From the NCBI GenBank assembly GCA_938015595.1, contig CALLPI010000004.1, positions 62,001 through 126,000 on the forward strand: 64,000 nt of DNA, given 5' to 3'. This DNA is from an uncultured Saprospiraceae bacterium (GTDB taxonomy: Bacteria; Bacteroidota; Bacteroidia; Chitinophagales; Saprospiraceae). The notes under the pieces are model-generated. The model saw only the letters and a list, made by a program, of their open reading frames with translations. It searched no databases and was not told the origin of the DNA. Shown one piece after another: positions 118 to 16,850 of the stretch. A program made the translations under genes and the position numbers. Position 1 is the stretch's first letter. Each line of letters starts with the position of its first letter.

Positions 118-1188
118 CTAACGTACTTGAAAATACACGTAAATCCAAATGGTTAGTAAGGCTACTGCACCTGCCTGGTGCCACACCCCTAAGCCTACAG
201 GTACCGTGCCTATACAGTTCACTACGGTAATAATACCCAACAGCACTTGCATCAACAGGCAGGCTAAGAAAAGCCACAGGCCGATACGAAGCGTTGGTGT
301 CTGCGCCAAGGGTAAAGCTTTGAAAACATACCACAACCCTATGATTGTCAATACATAAGCTACAGTTCGATGTAATACCTGCACCAATGCGCTCATGAAT
401 GGGCCGCTGTCGTAGTGCACAAAGTTGTAAGCATTCCACTGTCTGGCATCCCATAGCAGAGCGGGAATCAATTCACCGTGCATGTCGGGCCATGTAGGGT
501 ACAACAAGCCCGCTTTCATACCTGACATCATACCGCCCAGAGCTATCTGCAGCGCGATGAGTACCGAAAGTACACCACCCCATTTTTTTAATAATGGTAT
601 GTGGAAAAACTGTGAAGAAGGTGGAAATACCCGCAGAAAAGTCCACCATAAATATACATATACCACCAAAGCCAAAGATAAGTGCAATGTGAGCTTGTAG
701 GCATTCACCCAAGGGCGATTGACCAGGCCGCTGGCTACCATGATCCACCCAAAGGTGGCTACCAGCGCTGCCAACAGCACGGTAATACCTAGCCGCCGCA
801 TGAGGGCTGGTTCAATGGCGCCTTTTCGCCAAAAGAACAAGAAGGGGATCAAAAATACAAACCCCATGCTGCGTGCCCACAGCCGGTGGATATACTCCCA
901 AAAGTAGATGAACTTGAACTCGCTCATACTCATCCCGTGGTTGAGCTTCTGATACTGGGGCGTGGCCTTGTACAGATCAAAAGCCACCTCCCACTGCTTG
1001 GCATTCATAGGCGGGATAGTCCCCATCACAATCTCCCATTTGGTGATGGAAAGGCCCGACCCGGTGAGCCGCGTAATGCCACCTACCACAATCTGGATAA
1101 ATATCATCATCAGCCCAATCAAAAGCCAGGCACGTAGGGCTTTGCGATACGGGCGGTCATTGGAAGAGGTCAGCGTATGCGTTTGCAT
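118..1188 (-). CDS. ctaA: Heme A synthase (COX15/CtaA family)
   Basis: This 356-residue integral membrane protein oxidises the C8 methyl of heme O to make heme A for aa3-type cytochrome oxidase in the inner membrane. The sequence shows eight hydrophobic segments in two four-helix halves. Family hallmarks are visible: GGITRLTGSGLSI near residue 37, WEYIHRLWAR near residue 98, LHLSLAL near 168, the second-half Q-LHRT motif (QVLHRTVAY) and GVWHQAGAV near the C-terminus, supplying the conserved histidines. Length and motif order fit the COX15-like type 2 enzymes rather than the shorter Bacillus type. A Bacteroidota-type -7 element sits 65 bp upstream. Its presence implies aerobic respiration with heme A. 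Confidence 0.95.
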   Translation of the reverse strand: MQTHTLTSSNDRPYRKALRAWLLIGLMMIFIQIVVGGITRLTGSGLSITKWEIVMGTIPPMNAKQWEVAFDLYKATPQYQKLNHGMSMSEFKFIYFWEYIHRLWARSMGFVFLIPFLFFWRKGAIEPALMRRLGITVLLAALVATFGWIMVASGLVNRPWVNAYKLTLHLSLALVVYVYLWWTFLRVFPPSSQFFHIPLLKKWGGVLSVLIALQIALGGMMSGMKAGLLYPTWPDMHGELIPALLWDARQWNAYNFVHYDSGPFMSALVQVLHRTVAYVLTIIGLWYVFKALPLAQTPTLRIGLWLFLACLLMQVLLGIITVVNCIGTVPVGLGVWHQAGAVALLTIWIYVYFQVR

Positions 1189-10637: not shown

Positions 10638-11726
10638 TTACAGCGAAGTTGGACCTGGACCTATCTGGTCGGCAATCCACTGGCCTTTGTGGCAAAGCGC
10701 TGCCAGTTCTTCGCGGATGAAGTTTTGTACCTGGCCTGCAAATTGGTCGGGATACAAGAGGTGAAGGTTAGGCCCTGCGTCCAGGCTGAAATACAGAGGA
10801 ACTTGCTGTGCTGCCCGAAAAGCCCAGACTCGCTCAATAGCAGCGATGGTATGAGGTTTTATCAGCAAGTAAGCCGGCTGGGAGGTCATCATTAGGGCGT
10901 GGAGGGTGAGCGCTTCGCTTTCTACAATTCGGCCAAAGATGTCGAGGTCGCCGCACTGCATGGCTTCTATGAGGGTTTGCAGGCGCTGTCGGGCTTGTGT
11001 GTAGCGACTGTCGGCATAGATGTTGCCGTCCATCAGGGCATGACCAGCTCTACTGGATACGCTTTTTTCCTCTTGGCTAATGAGGAGAATGTCATCATGA
11101 AAAGTATAGAACACCTCGTGGAGGGTGTCATAAAACGGTACAGCATACAGGTTGGAGGAGCCAGCCACGAGAGGGGTTTCGCCCCATACAGCCAGTTTGG
11201 GATACACTGACCGGCAAGCGCTACCAGAGCCAAGGCGGGCTATGTAGGAGGCCTTTTGCAGGAAGGCGGCAGGGTCGTCTAGTGTGCCGAAGAGGCGCTG
11301 CTCTACGCTACACAGACACAAGGCCAGGGCACTCATGGCAGAAGCAGAGGATGCTATACCGGCAGAGTGGGGGAAGGAGTTGCGGGTATATACTATCCAC
11401 TCCATTTGTTTTAGAAAGGGAAAGATGTCAGTGAGTGATCCAAAGAATGCAGTTACTTTAGCTTGGAACGCTGTATTGGGCTGGCCCTGAAAAAAGAGCT
11501 GAAGCTGTATTTCTGGGTTGCTATCCGACTTGGGCTTGTATTCCAGCGTAGTTTCTGTGTATGCATTTTGTAAGGTGAAGCTAATAGAAGGGTTTCTGGG
11601 TAGTTGTACACCGTGCTTGCCCCAGTATTTAATAAGCGCCAAGTTAGACGGGCTTCGCCAGGCCACCTTACCTGGCTCGGTGTGCTGGCTTTCTGCTATC
11701 AGTCGTGGATTTTTGTAATTGAGCAT
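10638..11726 (-). CDS. mvaD: Diphosphomevalonate decarboxylase
   Basis: This cytoplasmic GHMP-superfamily enzyme uses ATP to decarboxylate mevalonate diphosphate to isopentenyl diphosphate, the last step of the mevalonate pathway. The 362-residue protein shows the family start AWRSPSNLALIKYWGKHG (a lysine and asparagine conserved in MDD), PRNPSISFTL, and the GHMP phosphate loop PHSAGIASSASAMSAL. It also shows the arginine-bearing SGSACRSVYP and SLDAGPNLHLLY near the C-terminus. These separate it from mevalonate kinase. No other mevalonate gene is in the window. It sits 34 bp downstream of thrC, with a parS-like palindrome in between. Confidence 0.95.
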   Translation of the reverse strand: MLNYKNPRLIAESQHTEPGKVAWRSPSNLALIKYWGKHGVQLPRNPSISFTLQNAYTETTLEYKPKSDSNPEIQLQLFFQGQPNTAFQAKVTAFFGSLTDIFPFLKQMEWIVYTRNSFPHSAGIASSASAMSALALCLCSVEQRLFGTLDDPAAFLQKASYIARLGSGSACRSVYPKLAVWGETPLVAGSSNLYAVPFYDTLHEVFYTFHDDILLISQEEKSVSSRAGHALMDGNIYADSRYTQARQRLQTLIEAMQCGDLDIFGRIVESEALTLHALMMTSQPAYLLIKPHTIAAIERVWAFRAAQQVPLYFSLDAGPNLHLLYPDQFAGQVQNFIREELAALCHKGQWIADQIGPGPTSL

Positions 11727-11741
11727 GGTTGAAGATTTAGA

Positions 11742-11757
11742 TGTTCCACGTGGAACA
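11742..11757. promoter_or_regulatory. parS-type centromere site 1
   Basis: The 16-bp perfect palindrome TGTTCCACGTGGAACA lies in the 34-bp gap between thrC and mvaD. It matches the chromosomal parS consensus bound by ParB (TGTTnCACGTGnAACA). An identical copy lies 357 bp away inside thrC. No parA or parB gene is in the window. parS sites normally lie near the replication origin. Confidence 0.8.
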
Positions 11758-11760
11758 TTT

Positions 11761-13077
11761 TTAAGCGTAATATTCCATAAGCCAGGATTTAAGCTCGCTG
11801 AACTGCGTGCTCATCAAGGTGGCGATTTTAGGGCGATGCGCGAGGGCAGCCAGGCGCTCTGGTATTTCTATGGGTTGCTGAAGGATGCGTTCCATGTCTT
11901 CCAGAAACTTTGCGGGGTGGGCGGTTTCCAGAATGATACCGATAGTATCGGGGTGTTGTTGTTGATAAGCCTCTAGCGCCAGGTAGCCCACTGCGCCATG
12001 GGGTTCTATAGTGTAGTGATATTGGCGGTGTACTTGACGTATGGCATTGGCGGTTTCGTGGTCGGTGTAGGCATAGCCCGAAATAGAGGCGGTCATATTG
12101 TTCCACGTGGAACATTTGGAGCTACTGAATAAGTCCAGCATGCGAGTAAAGTTGGAAGGATTTCCTACATCCATAGCGTTTGATAGGGTGCGCACAGAAG
12201 GGCGCGGCAGATACTGGCCGCTTTTTAGGTATTGAGGCACCACGTCGTTGATGTTGGTAGCGGCAATGAAGTGGTGCGCCGGTAGCCCCATGCGATGTGC
12301 AATAAGGCCAGCAGTGAGGTTGCCAAAATTACCACTAGGCACGCAGAAGACAACTGGTGTTTTGCCGTCTGCTACTTGCTTATAGGCCTCAAAATAATAA
12401 AAACTCTGTGGGATAAGCCGCGAGATGTTGATGCTATTCGCCGAGCTGAGGCGGATAGTTTGGCTAAGTGAAGCATCTAGGAAGGCTTGCTTGACCAGCG
12501 CCTGGCAGTCGTCAAAAGTGCCTTGTATCTCTAGTGCGGCAATGTTGTGCCCCAGAGAGGTGAGTTGTTTTTCCTGCAGCGGGCTTACCTTGCCAGAGGG
12601 ATAAAGGATGACCACGCGAATGCCAGGCGTCTGATAAAAACCTGCCGCCACTGCCCCACCTGTATCGCCACTGGTGGCCACCAGGATCACTAATTCCCTG
12701 TCTTCATCTCGATTGAAGTAGCTCATCATTTGCGCCATAAACCGAGCCCCAAAATCCTTGAAAGCCAAGGAAGGGCCGTGAAAGAGCTCCAGCACGCGCT
12801 TGTGATAGTCCAGTGTATGTACTGGCGCAGGAAAATTGATGGCTTTGGAGACAACGTCTTGCAGGTCGGCTTCGGGAATAGCGCCTTCGAGTAGCGTACG
12901 GGCTACTTCAAAAGCAATCTCCTGGAAGCTGTATCGCGGTAGATTAGTGATAAAATCGGCGGGCATTTTGGGGATGTATTGGGGCATGTAAAGGCCGTTG
13001 TCTTCCGGCAAGCCCCGAAATATCGCTTCTTTGAGCGATACCAGGTGCGATTTGTTTTTGGTGCTGTACAGTTTCAT
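11761..13077 (-). CDS. thrC: Threonine synthase
   Basis: A PLP enzyme that converts O-phosphohomoserine to threonine, the last step of the pathway. The 438-residue protein has the start MKLYSTKNKSHLVSLKEAI and the PLP-lysine motif HGPSLAFKDFGARFM. It also has the Ser/Gly phosphate loop VATSGDTGGAVAAGF and the glycine-rich PSGNFGNLTAGL. This is the E. coli-type short-chain form that starts from phosphohomoserine. It is 15 bp downstream of thrB, so thrB-thrC form an operon. A perfect parS palindrome is embedded in its reading frame at 12099-12114, coding for CSTWN. Confidence 0.96.
   Translation of the reverse strand: MKLYSTKNKSHLVSLKEAIFRGLPEDNGLYMPQYIPKMPADFITNLPRYSFQEIAFEVARTLLEGAIPEADLQDVVSKAINFPAPVHTLDYHKRVLELFHGPSLAFKDFGARFMAQMMSYFNRDEDRELVILVATSGDTGGAVAAGFYQTPGIRVVILYPSGKVSPLQEKQLTSLGHNIAALEIQGTFDDCQALVKQAFLDASLSQTIRLSSANSINISRLIPQSFYYFEAYKQVADGKTPVVFCVPSGNFGNLTAGLIAHRMGLPAHHFIAATNINDVVPQYLKSGQYLPRPSVRTLSNAMDVGNPSNFTRMLDLFSSSKCSTWNNMTASISGYAYTDHETANAIRQVHRQYHYTIEPHGAVGYLALEAYQQQHPDTIGIILETAHPAKFLEDMERILQQPIEIPERLAALAHRPKIATLMSTQFSELKSWLMEYYA
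12099..12114. promoter_or_regulatory. parS-type centromere site 2 (inside thrC)
   Basis: A second exact copy of TGTTCCACGTGGAACA, here within the thrC coding sequence. Chromosomal parS sites are often found inside genes. Two identical 16-mers 357 bp apart are not expected by chance. Confidence 0.8.
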
Positions 13078-13092
13078 AGATGGTAGTGGTGG

Positions 13093-14025
13093 CTATAAGA
13101 TGGCTTTGACACCGTTTGGGTTGATGGCAGAAAGATACAACTTATGGGCAATACCGGCAGCAGTAAATACCGATTGCATGGCCTCGCCAGCAAGAGCAGC
13201 AGCGTCTTTGCCTCGGCAAAGGGCTATTATGGAAGGCCCCGCACCAGAAATACTGCAGCCTAATGCTCCTGCTTCCGTAGCAGCGGCTTGTACTTCATAA
13301 AAGTGCGGGATGAGTGAAGCGCGCTGCGGCTCAATGATGGTATCATGCAAAGAGCGTTGCATAAGGGCATAATCGCCGGTGAAGAGGCTTATAATGAACC
13401 CTCCCAGCATCCCGCTTTGCACTACGTGTTGTTTGAGCGTGATGTGAGGAGCAAGCACGCCGCGTGCCGATTTGGTCAGTATCTCTACTTGAGGATATAC
13501 TACGGCAGCGTGTAAGTCTGGCGGAGAAGGGAGTATCTGCACGTCCAGTGAAGCATTATCTCTGATGAGCACCACGCCACCCAGCATACTAGGGGCTACA
13601 TTGTCGGCGTGCCAGGCGCCGCTGGCCAACTGTTCGCCTTGCATGGCAAAGGGTAGCAATTCCTTCTTGGAAAGCGGGCTGCCCAGCAGCAGGTTTACTG
13701 CGAAAGCACCACCCACCGCACTGGCAGCGCTGGAACCTAAGCCGCTGCCAAAGGGCATGTGCTTATGCACCTCCAGTTCAATGCCGATGCCTGATTTGTC
13801 CAGATGCTCCAGCAGTTTTAGGGCGGCCAAGCCGGCGGTGTTGCGCTGCGGATCGCAGGAGAGTCGGCCTTCGTCGCCGCTGATGGCCGTGATGCGCAGC
13901 CCAGGAGCGTCGCTGTATCGAGCTATGATTTCATCGCCAGGCTGCTCCAGGGCTATACCCAACATATCAAACCCCACAATGGCGTTGCCTACAGAGGCAG
14001 GGGCAAAAACTTTGACTTCTTGCAT
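13093..14025 (-). CDS. thrB: Homoserine kinase
   Basis: This GHMP kinase phosphorylates homoserine to O-phosphohomoserine, the substrate of the neighbouring threonine synthase. The 310-residue protein opens with VKVFAPASVGNAIVGFDMLG, has the ATP loop MPFGSGLGSSAASAVGGA, and the late GCSISGAGPSIIAL motif. The ATG at 14025 gives the normal start MQEVKVFAPASV; an upstream start at 14067 would add 14 unconserved residues. A -7 element at 14128-14135 suggests that thrB-thrC have their own promoter rather than depending on thrA. Confidence 0.95.
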   Translation of the reverse strand: MQEVKVFAPASVGNAIVGFDMLGIALEQPGDEIIARYSDAPGLRITAISGDEGRLSCDPQRNTAGLAALKLLEHLDKSGIGIELEVHKHMPFGSGLGSSAASAVGGAFAVNLLLGSPLSKKELLPFAMQGEQLASGAWHADNVAPSMLGGVVLIRDNASLDVQILPSPPDLHAAVVYPQVEILTKSARGVLAPHITLKQHVVQSGMLGGFIISLFTGDYALMQRSLHDTIIEPQRASLIPHFYEVQAAATEAGALGCSISGAGPSIIALCRGKDAAALAGEAMQSVFTAAGIAHKLYLSAINPNGVKAIL

Positions 14026-14396
14026 GTGCTTTATGCTGTTCCGGGCGTAATTTTTTGAGTAAACCAAAATATAGATAGCTTGCGCCGCTCAAGGCAAGAG
14101 GTCGTTGCCGTCCTCAAAATTTCGGTGCAAAGGTACACCTACTACCATACAAAAAGACAGAGTAATGGAGAAAATCCTCTGCATGCCGGCAGAAATCCTT
14201 TCACAGCATTTTCAACTATTGCTCTGACCTTTCTTGCCTCTTTACAAAACATTTTACCTGGCAAGCTTGACACTAGCAGGAGCGCACTAAAGTAAAGTCC
14301 TAAACTATCAAGAGCAACCGCACCCACCACTGCTGCCTTTTATCTCAGAAGCATACAGGCAAGTAGCCTGGAATATAACGGCTTTGCTTGAAGAAT
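14026..14396. other. 371-bp gap between thrA and thrB
   Basis: No gene was recognised here. The gap is unusually long for two consecutive genes of one pathway. It holds a TAnnTTTG element for thrB and a minus-strand open frame of 62 codons (14142-14330) with no recognisable features. I looked for a threonine/isoleucine-rich leader peptide typical of thr attenuation and found none. Confidence 0.5.
14128..14135 (-). promoter_or_regulatory. Bacteroidota-type -7 element for thrB-thrC
   Basis: Minus-strand TACCTTTG, a full TAnnTTTG match, 103 bp before the thrB start. A TTTG lies 14 bp further upstream (14150-14153), closer than the ideal spacing. Confidence 0.4.
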
Positions 14397-16850
14397 CTAC
14401 AAGAAATTTGCAATCCTAATGATTTCAGCAAATACTCCAGCAGCCGTAACCTCTGCTCCAGCGCCTGGTCCGCGCACTACTAATGGCCGCTCTTTATAGC
14501 GCTCGGTGGTGAACACAATCATATTGTCGGCACCACTCAAGCCATAAAACGGGTGCGATGCGCCCACTGCTTCCAGGCCGATAGTGGCATTGCCCTCGTC
14601 CAATTTGGCTACCATGCGCAGCACTTGTCCTTGGGCTGCCGCTTGCGCGCGTTTCTGCTCGTACTGATTATCTATTTGTGCCAGCTCCTGGAGGAAGTCT
14701 TCCACTGAGGCTGCTTGCAGGCATGTGTCAGGCAGTAGTGGGCGTATTTCAATGTCTTCTGCTTCGATAGCCAGGCCAGTTTCGCGAGCTAGAATGAGCA
14801 GCTTACGGCGCACATCCATGCAGTTGAGATCATCGCGAGGGTCAGGTTCAGTATAGCCCAGCTGCATGGCTTGGCGCACTGTGTCGCTGAAACGCAACCC
14901 CTCGCGGAACGTATTGAAGATGTAAGAGAGCGTACCAGAGAGCACACCTTCGATGCACAGGATGCGGTCGCCGCTATCCAGCAGATCGCGGAGTACGGAA
15001 ATGACCGGCAGGCCGGCACCTACGTTGGTTTCGTATTCAAATAGTACGCCGCGCTTAGCCGCAATGGCTTTGAGGCGTTGGTACTGCAGCCACGAAGAAG
15101 AAGTGGCAATCTTGTTGGGTGTGGAGATGGAGATGCTCGAGTCAAGGATGGTCTCGTAGTGCGGCACAATTTTGTCGCCGGCAGTATTATCCACAAAGAT
15201 GGTATTGCTAAGGTTGAGCGACTTCATCTGCTGTACAAAAGCACTGGGTTCGCTGGCCAGTTCGGATTCAGATAGCCGCTCCCGCCATTGGTTTAAAGGT
15301 ATGCCTTCAGGGTCAAATACCATTTTGCGGCTGTTGGCCAGGCCAACCACTTTGATTTCCATGGCGCGTTTTTCGCGTAGGTATTGCGCCTGCCGGCGTA
15401 TTTGCTCCAGCAGGGTACTGCCAATGAGGCCGGTGCCCACTATAAAGAGATGTACGTCCTGGGTGTCAGAAAGGAAGAAGGCTTCGTGCAGGGTATTTAG
15501 CGCTTTGGCCTCATCTTCGCGGCTGACGACAATAGAGATGTTTAACTCGGAAGAACCCTGTGCGATGGCCACCACGTTGATGCCATTTTTGCCTAGCGCC
15601 TGAAACAACTGCCCCGCAATGCCAGGCCGGTAGCGCATGTTTTCGCCAATGACGGCAATAACCGAAAGCCCTGTTTCTACCTTGACTGGCTCCATCCAGC
15701 CACGCTGAATTTCGGTGCTGAATTCTTTTTCCACCAGCTTGCGCGCCTTGGCGGCCAACTGGGGCGATATGGCAAAGGTAATGGAGTACTCTGACGACCC
15801 TTGCGTGATGAGGATGACATTAATGCTGCCACCGGCTAGGGCGTTGAACAAGCGGCCGGCAATGCCCGGCACGCCAAAGATGCCACTGCCCTGTAGAGTG
15901 AGCAGTGCGACTTCGTTGATGGACGACAGCCCTTTGACTGGCAAGTTGCTCGGCTCAGACTTGTCGGATACTACTGTACCAGCAAAGGACGGGTTGAATG
16001 TATTTTTGATGATCAGAGGTATGCGCTTGGCTAGCGCTGGCTGTATGGTAGGCGGGTAGATGACCTTGGCACCAAAGTGCGACATTTCCATGGCCTCGGC
16101 GTAGGTCATGGAGCTGAGGGTAAAGGCTTTTTTTACTTTGCGGGGGTCGGCGGTGAGCACGCCGTCCACGTCCGTCCATATTTCAATGACCCGGGCATCG
16201 AGCGCAGCCCCCAGGATGGCCGCGGTGTAGTCGGAGCCACCGCGCCCTAGAGTAGTGGTCAGGCCGCCTTTAGTTGAGCCAATGAAGCCTGTAACTGACT
16301 GTATTTCAAGGTTTTGGTAAAAATACTCGCGAATTTTTTCGTTCGTGGTTTCAAAGTCCACTTGGGCACTGCCGAAGCGGTTGTCGGTTTTGATCACCTT
16401 GCGGGCATCCAAGTAAGCGGCGTTCAGGCCAGCCTGGCGCATGACCTGGGAAATGAGAAAAGCTGAGTTGCGCTCGCCGAAGCTGATGACGTAGTCAAGC
16501 GTACGGGGTGAAGCCTCTCGCACCAGGAAGATGCCGTATAGCAGGCTTTTGAGCACGTCAAAGTTATTTTCCAGTTCGGGCAGTACTTGTCCCAGGTAGC
16601 GGTCTTTGAGCAGGCTTTGAGCTGCATCGAGGTGGCGTTGGCGCACGGCATCAAACAAGTCGGTGTAAGAAGCGTCGCCGTCAGCGGCTTTGTTGGCCAT
16701 AGCAATGAGAGCATCAGTTACGCCAGAGAAGGCGGAAAAAACCACTGCAAATTTTTCGCCTTGCTGGTAGTAGCTTTTTAGGATTTCTACTATGCTGCGG
16801 ATGCGCTCAGGCGTACCTACCGAAGAGCCACCGAATTTCAGCACTTTCAT
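14397..16850 (-). CDS. thrA: Bifunctional aspartate kinase / homoserine dehydrogenase I
   Basis: An 817-residue cytoplasmic fusion enzyme that performs the first and third steps from aspartate to homoserine. Residues 1-290 are the aspartokinase (MKVLKFGGSSVGTPERI; LGRGGSDYTAAILGA). Residues about 310-460 hold two ACT regulatory domains, seen as the paired segments GVPGIAGRLFNALAGGSINV and RPGIAGQLFQALGKNGINVV, which normally bind threonine for feedback inhibition. Residues 465-817 are the NAD(P)-dependent homoserine dehydrogenase (LFIVGTGLIGSTLLEQI; GVLSGTLSYIFNTF). Length and order match E. coli ThrA. With thrB and thrC it makes the full threonine branch; the thrA-thrB gap is 371 bp. Confidence 0.96.
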   Translation of the reverse strand: MKVLKFGGSSVGTPERIRSIVEILKSYYQQGEKFAVVFSAFSGVTDALIAMANKAADGDASYTDLFDAVRQRHLDAAQSLLKDRYLGQVLPELENNFDVLKSLLYGIFLVREASPRTLDYVISFGERNSAFLISQVMRQAGLNAAYLDARKVIKTDNRFGSAQVDFETTNEKIREYFYQNLEIQSVTGFIGSTKGGLTTTLGRGGSDYTAAILGAALDARVIEIWTDVDGVLTADPRKVKKAFTLSSMTYAEAMEMSHFGAKVIYPPTIQPALAKRIPLIIKNTFNPSFAGTVVSDKSEPSNLPVKGLSSINEVALLTLQGSGIFGVPGIAGRLFNALAGGSINVILITQGSSEYSITFAISPQLAAKARKLVEKEFSTEIQRGWMEPVKVETGLSVIAVIGENMRYRPGIAGQLFQALGKNGINVVAIAQGSSELNISIVVSREDEAKALNTLHEAFFLSDTQDVHLFIVGTGLIGSTLLEQIRRQAQYLREKRAMEIKVVGLANSRKMVFDPEGIPLNQWRERLSESELASEPSAFVQQMKSLNLSNTIFVDNTAGDKIVPHYETILDSSISISTPNKIATSSSWLQYQRLKAIAAKRGVLFEYETNVGAGLPVISVLRDLLDSGDRILCIEGVLSGTLSYIFNTFREGLRFSDTVRQAMQLGYTEPDPRDDLNCMDVRRKLLILARETGLAIEAEDIEIRPLLPDTCLQAASVEDFLQELAQIDNQYEQKRAQAAAQGQVLRMVAKLDEGNATIGLEAVGASHPFYGLSGADNMIVFTTERYKERPLVVRGPGAGAEVTAAGVFAEIIRIANFL

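Follow-up and report, generated by a model that had tools for sequence, protein, structure and literature searches.

Two parS palindromes, one in frame within thrC, as the probable chromosomal centromere of a Saprospiraceae bacterium

Two identical 16-bp palindromes in a Saprospiraceae genome, one in the thrC-mvaD gap and one inside thrC, very probably constitute the chromosomal parS (centromere) of this organism, with an origin region ~10 kb off at ctaA and with the codons inside thrC held by the DNA site rather than by the enzyme, as judged from sequence comparison. The window, the whole 64-kb stretch analyzed here, corresponds to C4:62001-126000 of the draft genome. The uniqueness of the site pair, the presence of genes for ParB, a ParA-like ATPase, and SMC, a likely oriC nearby, and the linkage of parS with the origin in a one-contig relative (G086) together make it very likely that these are the parS sites of the chromosome.

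In ParABS systems, ParB loading begins at parS; from there the protein spreads along the DNA, and it both stimulates ParA and brings in SMC, so that the origin region is the first to segregate (PMC7333895, PMC7022226). We infer ParB binding, spreading, and segregation at the two sites described here. ParB would load at both copies, slide outward to cover thrABC and mvaD, and interact with ParA and SMC, which together with ParB would move the freshly copied origin region, starting ~10 kb away at ctaA. The reading frame would render the in-thrC palindrome as x-[S/F]-T-W-N in a length-variable loop, and the DNA site, not the enzyme, would keep these codons fixed.

The probable parS pair and its surroundings

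A scan of the window located two exact copies of the 16-mer TGTTCCACGTGGAACA, with a start-to-start spacing of 357 bp (Table 1). Both copies match the 16-bp palindrome TGTTYCACGTGRAACA of chromosomal parS, and they are few and clustered, as chromosomal parS sites are. The 16-mer is identical to P. aeruginosa parS2 and parS3, at which ParB binding was measured (PMC4368675). No third copy was found in the 64-kb window with up to three mismatches allowed; at this looseness, shuffling gives an expectation of 0.27 matches per window, with at least two in 2 of 100 shuffles. For the exact 16-mer, the uniform expectation is ~1.5e-5 per window and 9e-4 per genome. Across the whole 3.77-Mb draft (27 contigs), the window pair provides the only matches at ≤1 mismatch, and one extra two-mismatch match on C20 compares with a chance expectation of ~1.

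A gap of 34 bases (11727-11760) separates the thrC stop from the mvaD start; copy 1 lies within it, 16-31 bases ahead of the mvaD ATG, while copy 2 occupies codons 322-326 in phase 0 of thrC. The plus-strand order is mvaD, parS copy 1, thrC with parS copy 2, thrB, and thrA, all four genes being encoded on the minus strand. The original prediction had described two identical perfect palindromes 357 bp apart, one in the thrC-mvaD gap and the other in the thrC frame as CSTWN, with a complete match to the ParB-binding consensus and no other copy in the window; each of these points is borne out by the scan, and the genome-wide 16-mer search proposed with it returned two clustered copies at ≤1 mismatch rather than many scattered ones.

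Table 1. Features of the window, in window coordinates
Feature	Position	Strand	Description
Predicted oriC	77-1645	none	Six TTWTCCACA DnaA boxes and an AT-rich stretch at ~1281-1420
ctaA/COX15 heme A synthase family gene	118-1188	-	Within the DnaA-box cluster; 289.9 bits against PF02628; 234.8 against the NCBIfam heme A synthase model, under cut-off 550
AT-rich intergenic region	1189-1880	none	Separates ctaA from a short ORF; contains three of the six DnaA boxes
mvaD-like gene, diphosphomevalonate decarboxylase family	10638-11726	-	Start codon just past parS copy 1; TIGR01240 145.8 bits, under cut-off 171
parS copy 1	11742-11757	none (palindrome)	Perfect 16 bp; thrC-mvaD gap, 3 bases past the thrC stop codon
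thrC, threonine synthase	11761-13077	-	Holds parS copy 2; TIGR00260 294 bits, cut-off 167
parS copy 2	12099-12114	none (palindrome)	Perfect 16 bp; in frame within thrC as C322-S-T-W-N326
thrB, homoserine kinase	13093-14067	-	Follows thrC in plus-strand order
thrA, bifunctional aspartate kinase/homoserine dehydrogenase	14397-16850	-	Follows thrB in plus-strand order

Predicted origin and partner proteins

The predicted oriC consists of a DnaA-box cluster beside an AT-rich element, located ~10 kb from parS in the same window. Matches to TTWTCCACA, which we take to be the DnaA-box consensus, start at 77, 89, 600, 1427, 1480, and 1637, lying beside or within ctaA and in the AT-rich gap that follows it, where the AT content reaches 0.75-0.78 over 1281-1420 (100-base windows). 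Six boxes fall in a 1.6-kb stretch of the window, versus six in the other 398 kb of C4 examined. The short ORF beside the cluster resembles an ArsR-type regulator, judged by eye; tblastn gave no match to it in the G086 origin region (400 kb) or in the G081 stretches searched. Bipartite origins comprise a DnaA-dependent oriC with DnaA boxes flanking a gene. The arrangement here is alike in that boxes flank and lie within a gene, accompanied by an AT-rich stretch, but differs in that the gene is ctaA and not dnaA, which is carried on another contig (C5). As an origin marker dnaA was dropped: it is on C5 here, and in G086 it lies at base 25 of the contig, with 2.35 Mb between it and the skew minimum.

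GC skew over 400 of the 402 kb of C4 is flat and noisy, with no clear minimum at the predicted oriC and its lowest value near 15 kb. In G086, sparsely sampled skew (20 windows, one discordant at 3.04 Mb) is below zero from ~6.08 Mb across 0 to 2.28 Mb and above zero between 2.35 and 5.7 Mb. In a contiguous 400-kb scan of this relative, the minimum falls on 2349195, inside a cluster of DnaA boxes (2347678-2349377) around ctaA (2347720-2348766), and two exact parS sites follow thrC at 2363788 and 2363880, 14.6 kb from the minimum. In G081, three parS-like sites, of which two are exact and the third has a mismatch, are interspersed with ten TTWTNCACA matches in 0.4 kb (L171, G081:C1:2044974-2045362), so that the centromere and the origin of this genome seem to share one physical stretch. 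These sites do not adjoin thrC, the 20-kb stretch around them containing no thrC match. Sparse GC skew of G081 was too noisy to locate the origin and was dropped.

The ctaA-parS distance covers 39 genomes with both places tabulated; in G021 and G035 the ctaA matches were fragments only. Both elements share one contig, 0.9-50 kb apart, in 21 of the 39 (19 of 25 in the same family, own genome included), and occupy separate contigs, which is uninformative in drafts, in the other 18, 12 of these belonging to other families. At least three TTWTCCACA boxes are present at 17 of 30 ctaA loci. Fewer than three are found at 13, including four with none, two of them incomplete, so ctaA is not necessarily the origin everywhere. 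One ctaA locus (L235, in G024) contains 22 TTWTCCACA boxes in 4 kb, several spaced 62-64 bases, far above the other 29 ctaA loci.

The genome contains a single match to TIGR00180, the ParB model (C5:85672-86175, 167.8 bits versus a cut-off of 58.45). The 306-aa ORF matches the Spo0J, ParB, and Noc chains of solved structures (6sdk E 3e-46) and contains the ParB motif GERR. Its best NCBIfam score is for the nucleoid-occlusion protein Noc (214 bits, where 315 would be needed), and it passes the cut-off of TIGR00180 only; the family models alone therefore do not separate ParB from Noc, and the ParA-like neighbor and the parS sites favor ParB. This neighbor, directly upstream of parB, is a 268-aa Walker-type ATPase ORF with KGGVGKTT and with ParA/MinD-type NCBIfam matches, none among those shown above its cut-off. 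SMC is encoded at full length on C15 (964.5 bits), and a TIGR00180 match is present in 113 of 120 genomes of the family sample. The original prediction of a likely chromosome partition centre, which came with a proposed search for parA and parB, is thus supported by the few clustered sites together with an encoded ParB beside a ParA-like ATPase, a genome devoid of any ParB homologue not being the case here. Its guess of origin proximity gains support from the DnaA-box cluster at 77-1637 and from the distance of the G086 skew minimum to the thrC-linked parS pair. Conservation of the in-thrC position among relatives, with the peptide that it dictates, goes beyond what that prediction could draw on.

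In the draft genome, parB and parS lie on different contigs (C5 and C4). The near-closed set comprises 16 genomes of one or two contigs, seven of which have no exact TGTTYCACGTGRAACA match and are uninformative. In all nine genomes with an exact match, parB is 0.135-0.456 of the chromosome (13-46%) from parS, the chromosome lengths of six being rounded. The usual place of the par operon is the ori domain, the 20% of the chromosome around oriC (PMC7022226). This is not so in G086, where parB lies at 0.456 of the circle from parS, near the skew-defined terminus, nor in the eight others with parS as the origin proxy; the origin was defined by skew in G086 only and by DnaA boxes in G081.

The in-gene site among relatives and its explanation

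A parS site at ≤1 mismatch is present in 45 of 60 genomes, own genome included, and absent from 15; a reversed control pattern occurs in four of the 60. Places were tabulated for 41 of the 45, with G015, G030, and G047 (places not listed) and G050 (57% complete, its sites on two contigs) left out; a third, two-mismatch match in G002 was not counted. Twelve of the 41 genomes hold one site, 27 hold at least two on one contig within 2.3 kb, and two hold sites on two contigs, so that 27 of the 29 multi-site genomes show tight clustering. At one locus (L004, G049:C62:15742-15905), three TGTTCCACGGGGAACA sites, one mismatch from parS, recur at an exact 74-base spacing and are possibly a repeat or a variant parS.

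The thrC search took the best 80 of 589 named loci, which were not chosen by parS, though the query alignment was built from parS-linked loci. The in-thrC site is found in 15 of these 80, in phase 0 in all 15, and the titles of the 15 name Saprospiraceae (ten), 'Bacteroidota bacterium' (three), Chitinophagales (one), and Phaeodactylibacter (one). Twelve of the 15 carry a second site within 1 kb past thrC, and three further loci of the best 80 have downstream sites only. Among the best 80 of 589, no site at ≤2 mismatches occurs at the loci of Sphingobacteriaceae, Cytophagales, Flavobacteriia, or Verrucomicrobia. Both thrC and its neighborhood are likewise free of a site at five Saprospiraceae-titled loci (L050, L051, L052, L054, and L089); four of the five genomes hold sites elsewhere, and the fifth, G147, has none at ≤2 mismatches.

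A larger pool of 96 distinct thrC genes, to which parS-centered loci contributed, was partly chosen via parS, so the 26 genes carrying the in-gene site give no frequency estimate. For this count, six duplicates were merged, L211 (a partial second piece of the G086 gene) was removed, and the scan passed over L002 together with C4 stretches L124-L143, which duplicate the window gene. All 26 sites share one reading phase (0) in a length-variable loop. Bases 2-15 are unchanged save for a single T in place of C at base 5, while any of the four letters can stand at base 1, which differs from T (G, A, or C) in 19 of 26, and the wobble bases of the codons ahead of the site drift. The site is read as TCC (25) or TTC (1) followed by ACG-TGG-AAC; from the codon use of the rest of the genes, TCC-ACG-AAC for S-T-N is expected at ~0.010 per gene, a value that was not multiplied because thrC genes share ancestry. 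Genes with the site encode the [S/F]TWN peptide in 26 of 26 cases versus 0 of 70 for genes without it, which argues that the DNA, not the protein, is conserved.

Six of the 26 in-gene copies are GGTTCCACGTGGAACA, the reverse complement of P. aeruginosa parS1/parS4 (PMC4368675). At L046, the T at base 5, as in B. subtilis-type parS, changes the peptide to FTWN, and the downstream copy is TGTTTCACGTGAAACA. Eight thrC genes without the in-gene site carry at least two copies (≤2 mismatches) within 1 kb past the stop. Trp is frequent at the same loop place in threonine synthases of other bacteria, including E. coli 1VB3, and since it is common in these loops, the TGG of parS probably landed where a Trp codon already stood. 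In the predicted structure of ThrC (mean pLDDT 91), residues 322-326 fall at a loop end and helix start; the model is least certain at residues 271-330, with ten-residue means of 67-83 and 77 for the block with the site.

A tree of the 96 ThrC proteins, with 32 loop residues cut, requires at least eight changes of the in-gene site against a shuffled mean of 22.9, none of 500 shuffles being as low; the tree was built by a quick method, and its well-supported branches force only one change. In our reading, the in-gene parS site is old and would have been kept inside thrC over long evolutionary time. In the same tree, the Verrucomicrobia proteins, none with the parS loop, group with a Saprospiraceae-titled row inside the Saprospiraceae part (support 88, not starred), perhaps through gene transfer.

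An alternative in which the palindrome is the operator of a transcription factor for the thr/mvaD genes, and not a segregation site, is highly improbable. One copy does lie 16-31 bases ahead of the mvaD start, and sites remain near thrC in many relatives, but the second copy is buried deep within thrC, the same sequence recurs in the DnaA-box cluster of G081 with no thrC match in the surrounding 20 kb, the sequence is identical to experimentally tested parS (PMC4368675), and ParB is encoded in the genome. Equally improbable is a requirement of the enzyme for the STWN peptide, with the palindrome in thrC as a by-product: the motif is absent from 70 of the 96 thrC genes, the 26 that have it share TCC/TTC then ACG-TGG-AAC against an expectation of ~1% per gene for S-T-N, and base 1 of the site varies freely, unlike the wobble bases within it. 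The peptide also becomes FTWN where the DNA has the other known parS base, residues 322-326 sit at a loop end in the least certain part of the predicted structure, and eight genes without the in-gene site carry at least two copies within 1 kb past the stop instead. In favor of this reading, Trp is common at this place in other threonine synthases (E. coli 1VB3, several loops).

That the intergenic copy alone acts, the in-gene copy being a relic or a weak accessory site, is unlikely. The frequent departure of in-gene base 1 from T (19 of 26) and the sufficiency of a single parS in P. aeruginosa (PMC4368675) speak for such a reading. Against it, bases 2-15 are kept with one exception across 26 genes, and a single mismatch in the site weakens binding by P. 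aeruginosa ParB only slightly (PMC4368675). Four in-gene copies (L031, L043, L049, and L098) moreover have no companion within 1 kb downstream, a count for which ~0.35 kb was examined past L049; for L031 and L098, a second site of looser match lies within the gene or ahead of it. The reading we prefer is that both palindromes serve as chromosomal parS.

Relation to known systems and implications

Read as parS, the pair resembles the P. aeruginosa ParABS system in its identical 16-mer (parS2/parS3), in its small origin-proximal cluster, and in the location of sites within coding sequence, as predicted for nine of ten sites there (PMC4368675). It differs in the placement of parAB, which is ~7 kb from oriC in P. 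aeruginosa and here lies on another contig, far from parS in near-closed relatives; a fixed in-frame position conserved across a family is not among the features that the available text of PMC4368675 describes. B. subtilis Spo0J-parS shares the same consensus family TGTTNCACGTGAAACA, the location near oriC, and the presence of SMC, but has 10 sites, eight in the ori domain, compared with two in one 0.4-kb cluster here (PMC7022226, Table 1).

The parS palindrome as an element and its occurrence inside genes are therefore already known, the latter from P. aeruginosa (PMC4368675). Possibly new are the retention of parS at a single codon position of one enzyme across a family, where it dictates a peptide, and the distance between parAB and parS. 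Among the papers listed by a literature search, none dealt with parS in Saprospiraceae or in thrC, and absence from print is not claimed. Livny et al. 2007 is reportedly a comparative parS survey.

A farther-reaching proposal, which we consider decidedly unlikely, is that this family has made its centromere a component of a metabolic gene, in which the in-frame parS fixes the ThrC peptide and builds ParB loading and spreading into the thr/mvaD region, which could couple segregation to thr or mevalonate expression, while a parAB far from the origin (near the terminus in one relative) would leave the supply of ParB set by a late-replicating gene. The separation of parAB and parS in near-closed genomes of this class would, if it holds, depart in a testable way from the rule placing the par operon in the ori domain. 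The in-gene site, with ParB binding inferred, would provide a natural example, present in many species, of a DNA-binding site overriding the protein reading of a housekeeping gene, and the window offers a candidate centromere and a candidate replication origin for a poorly studied bacterial family.
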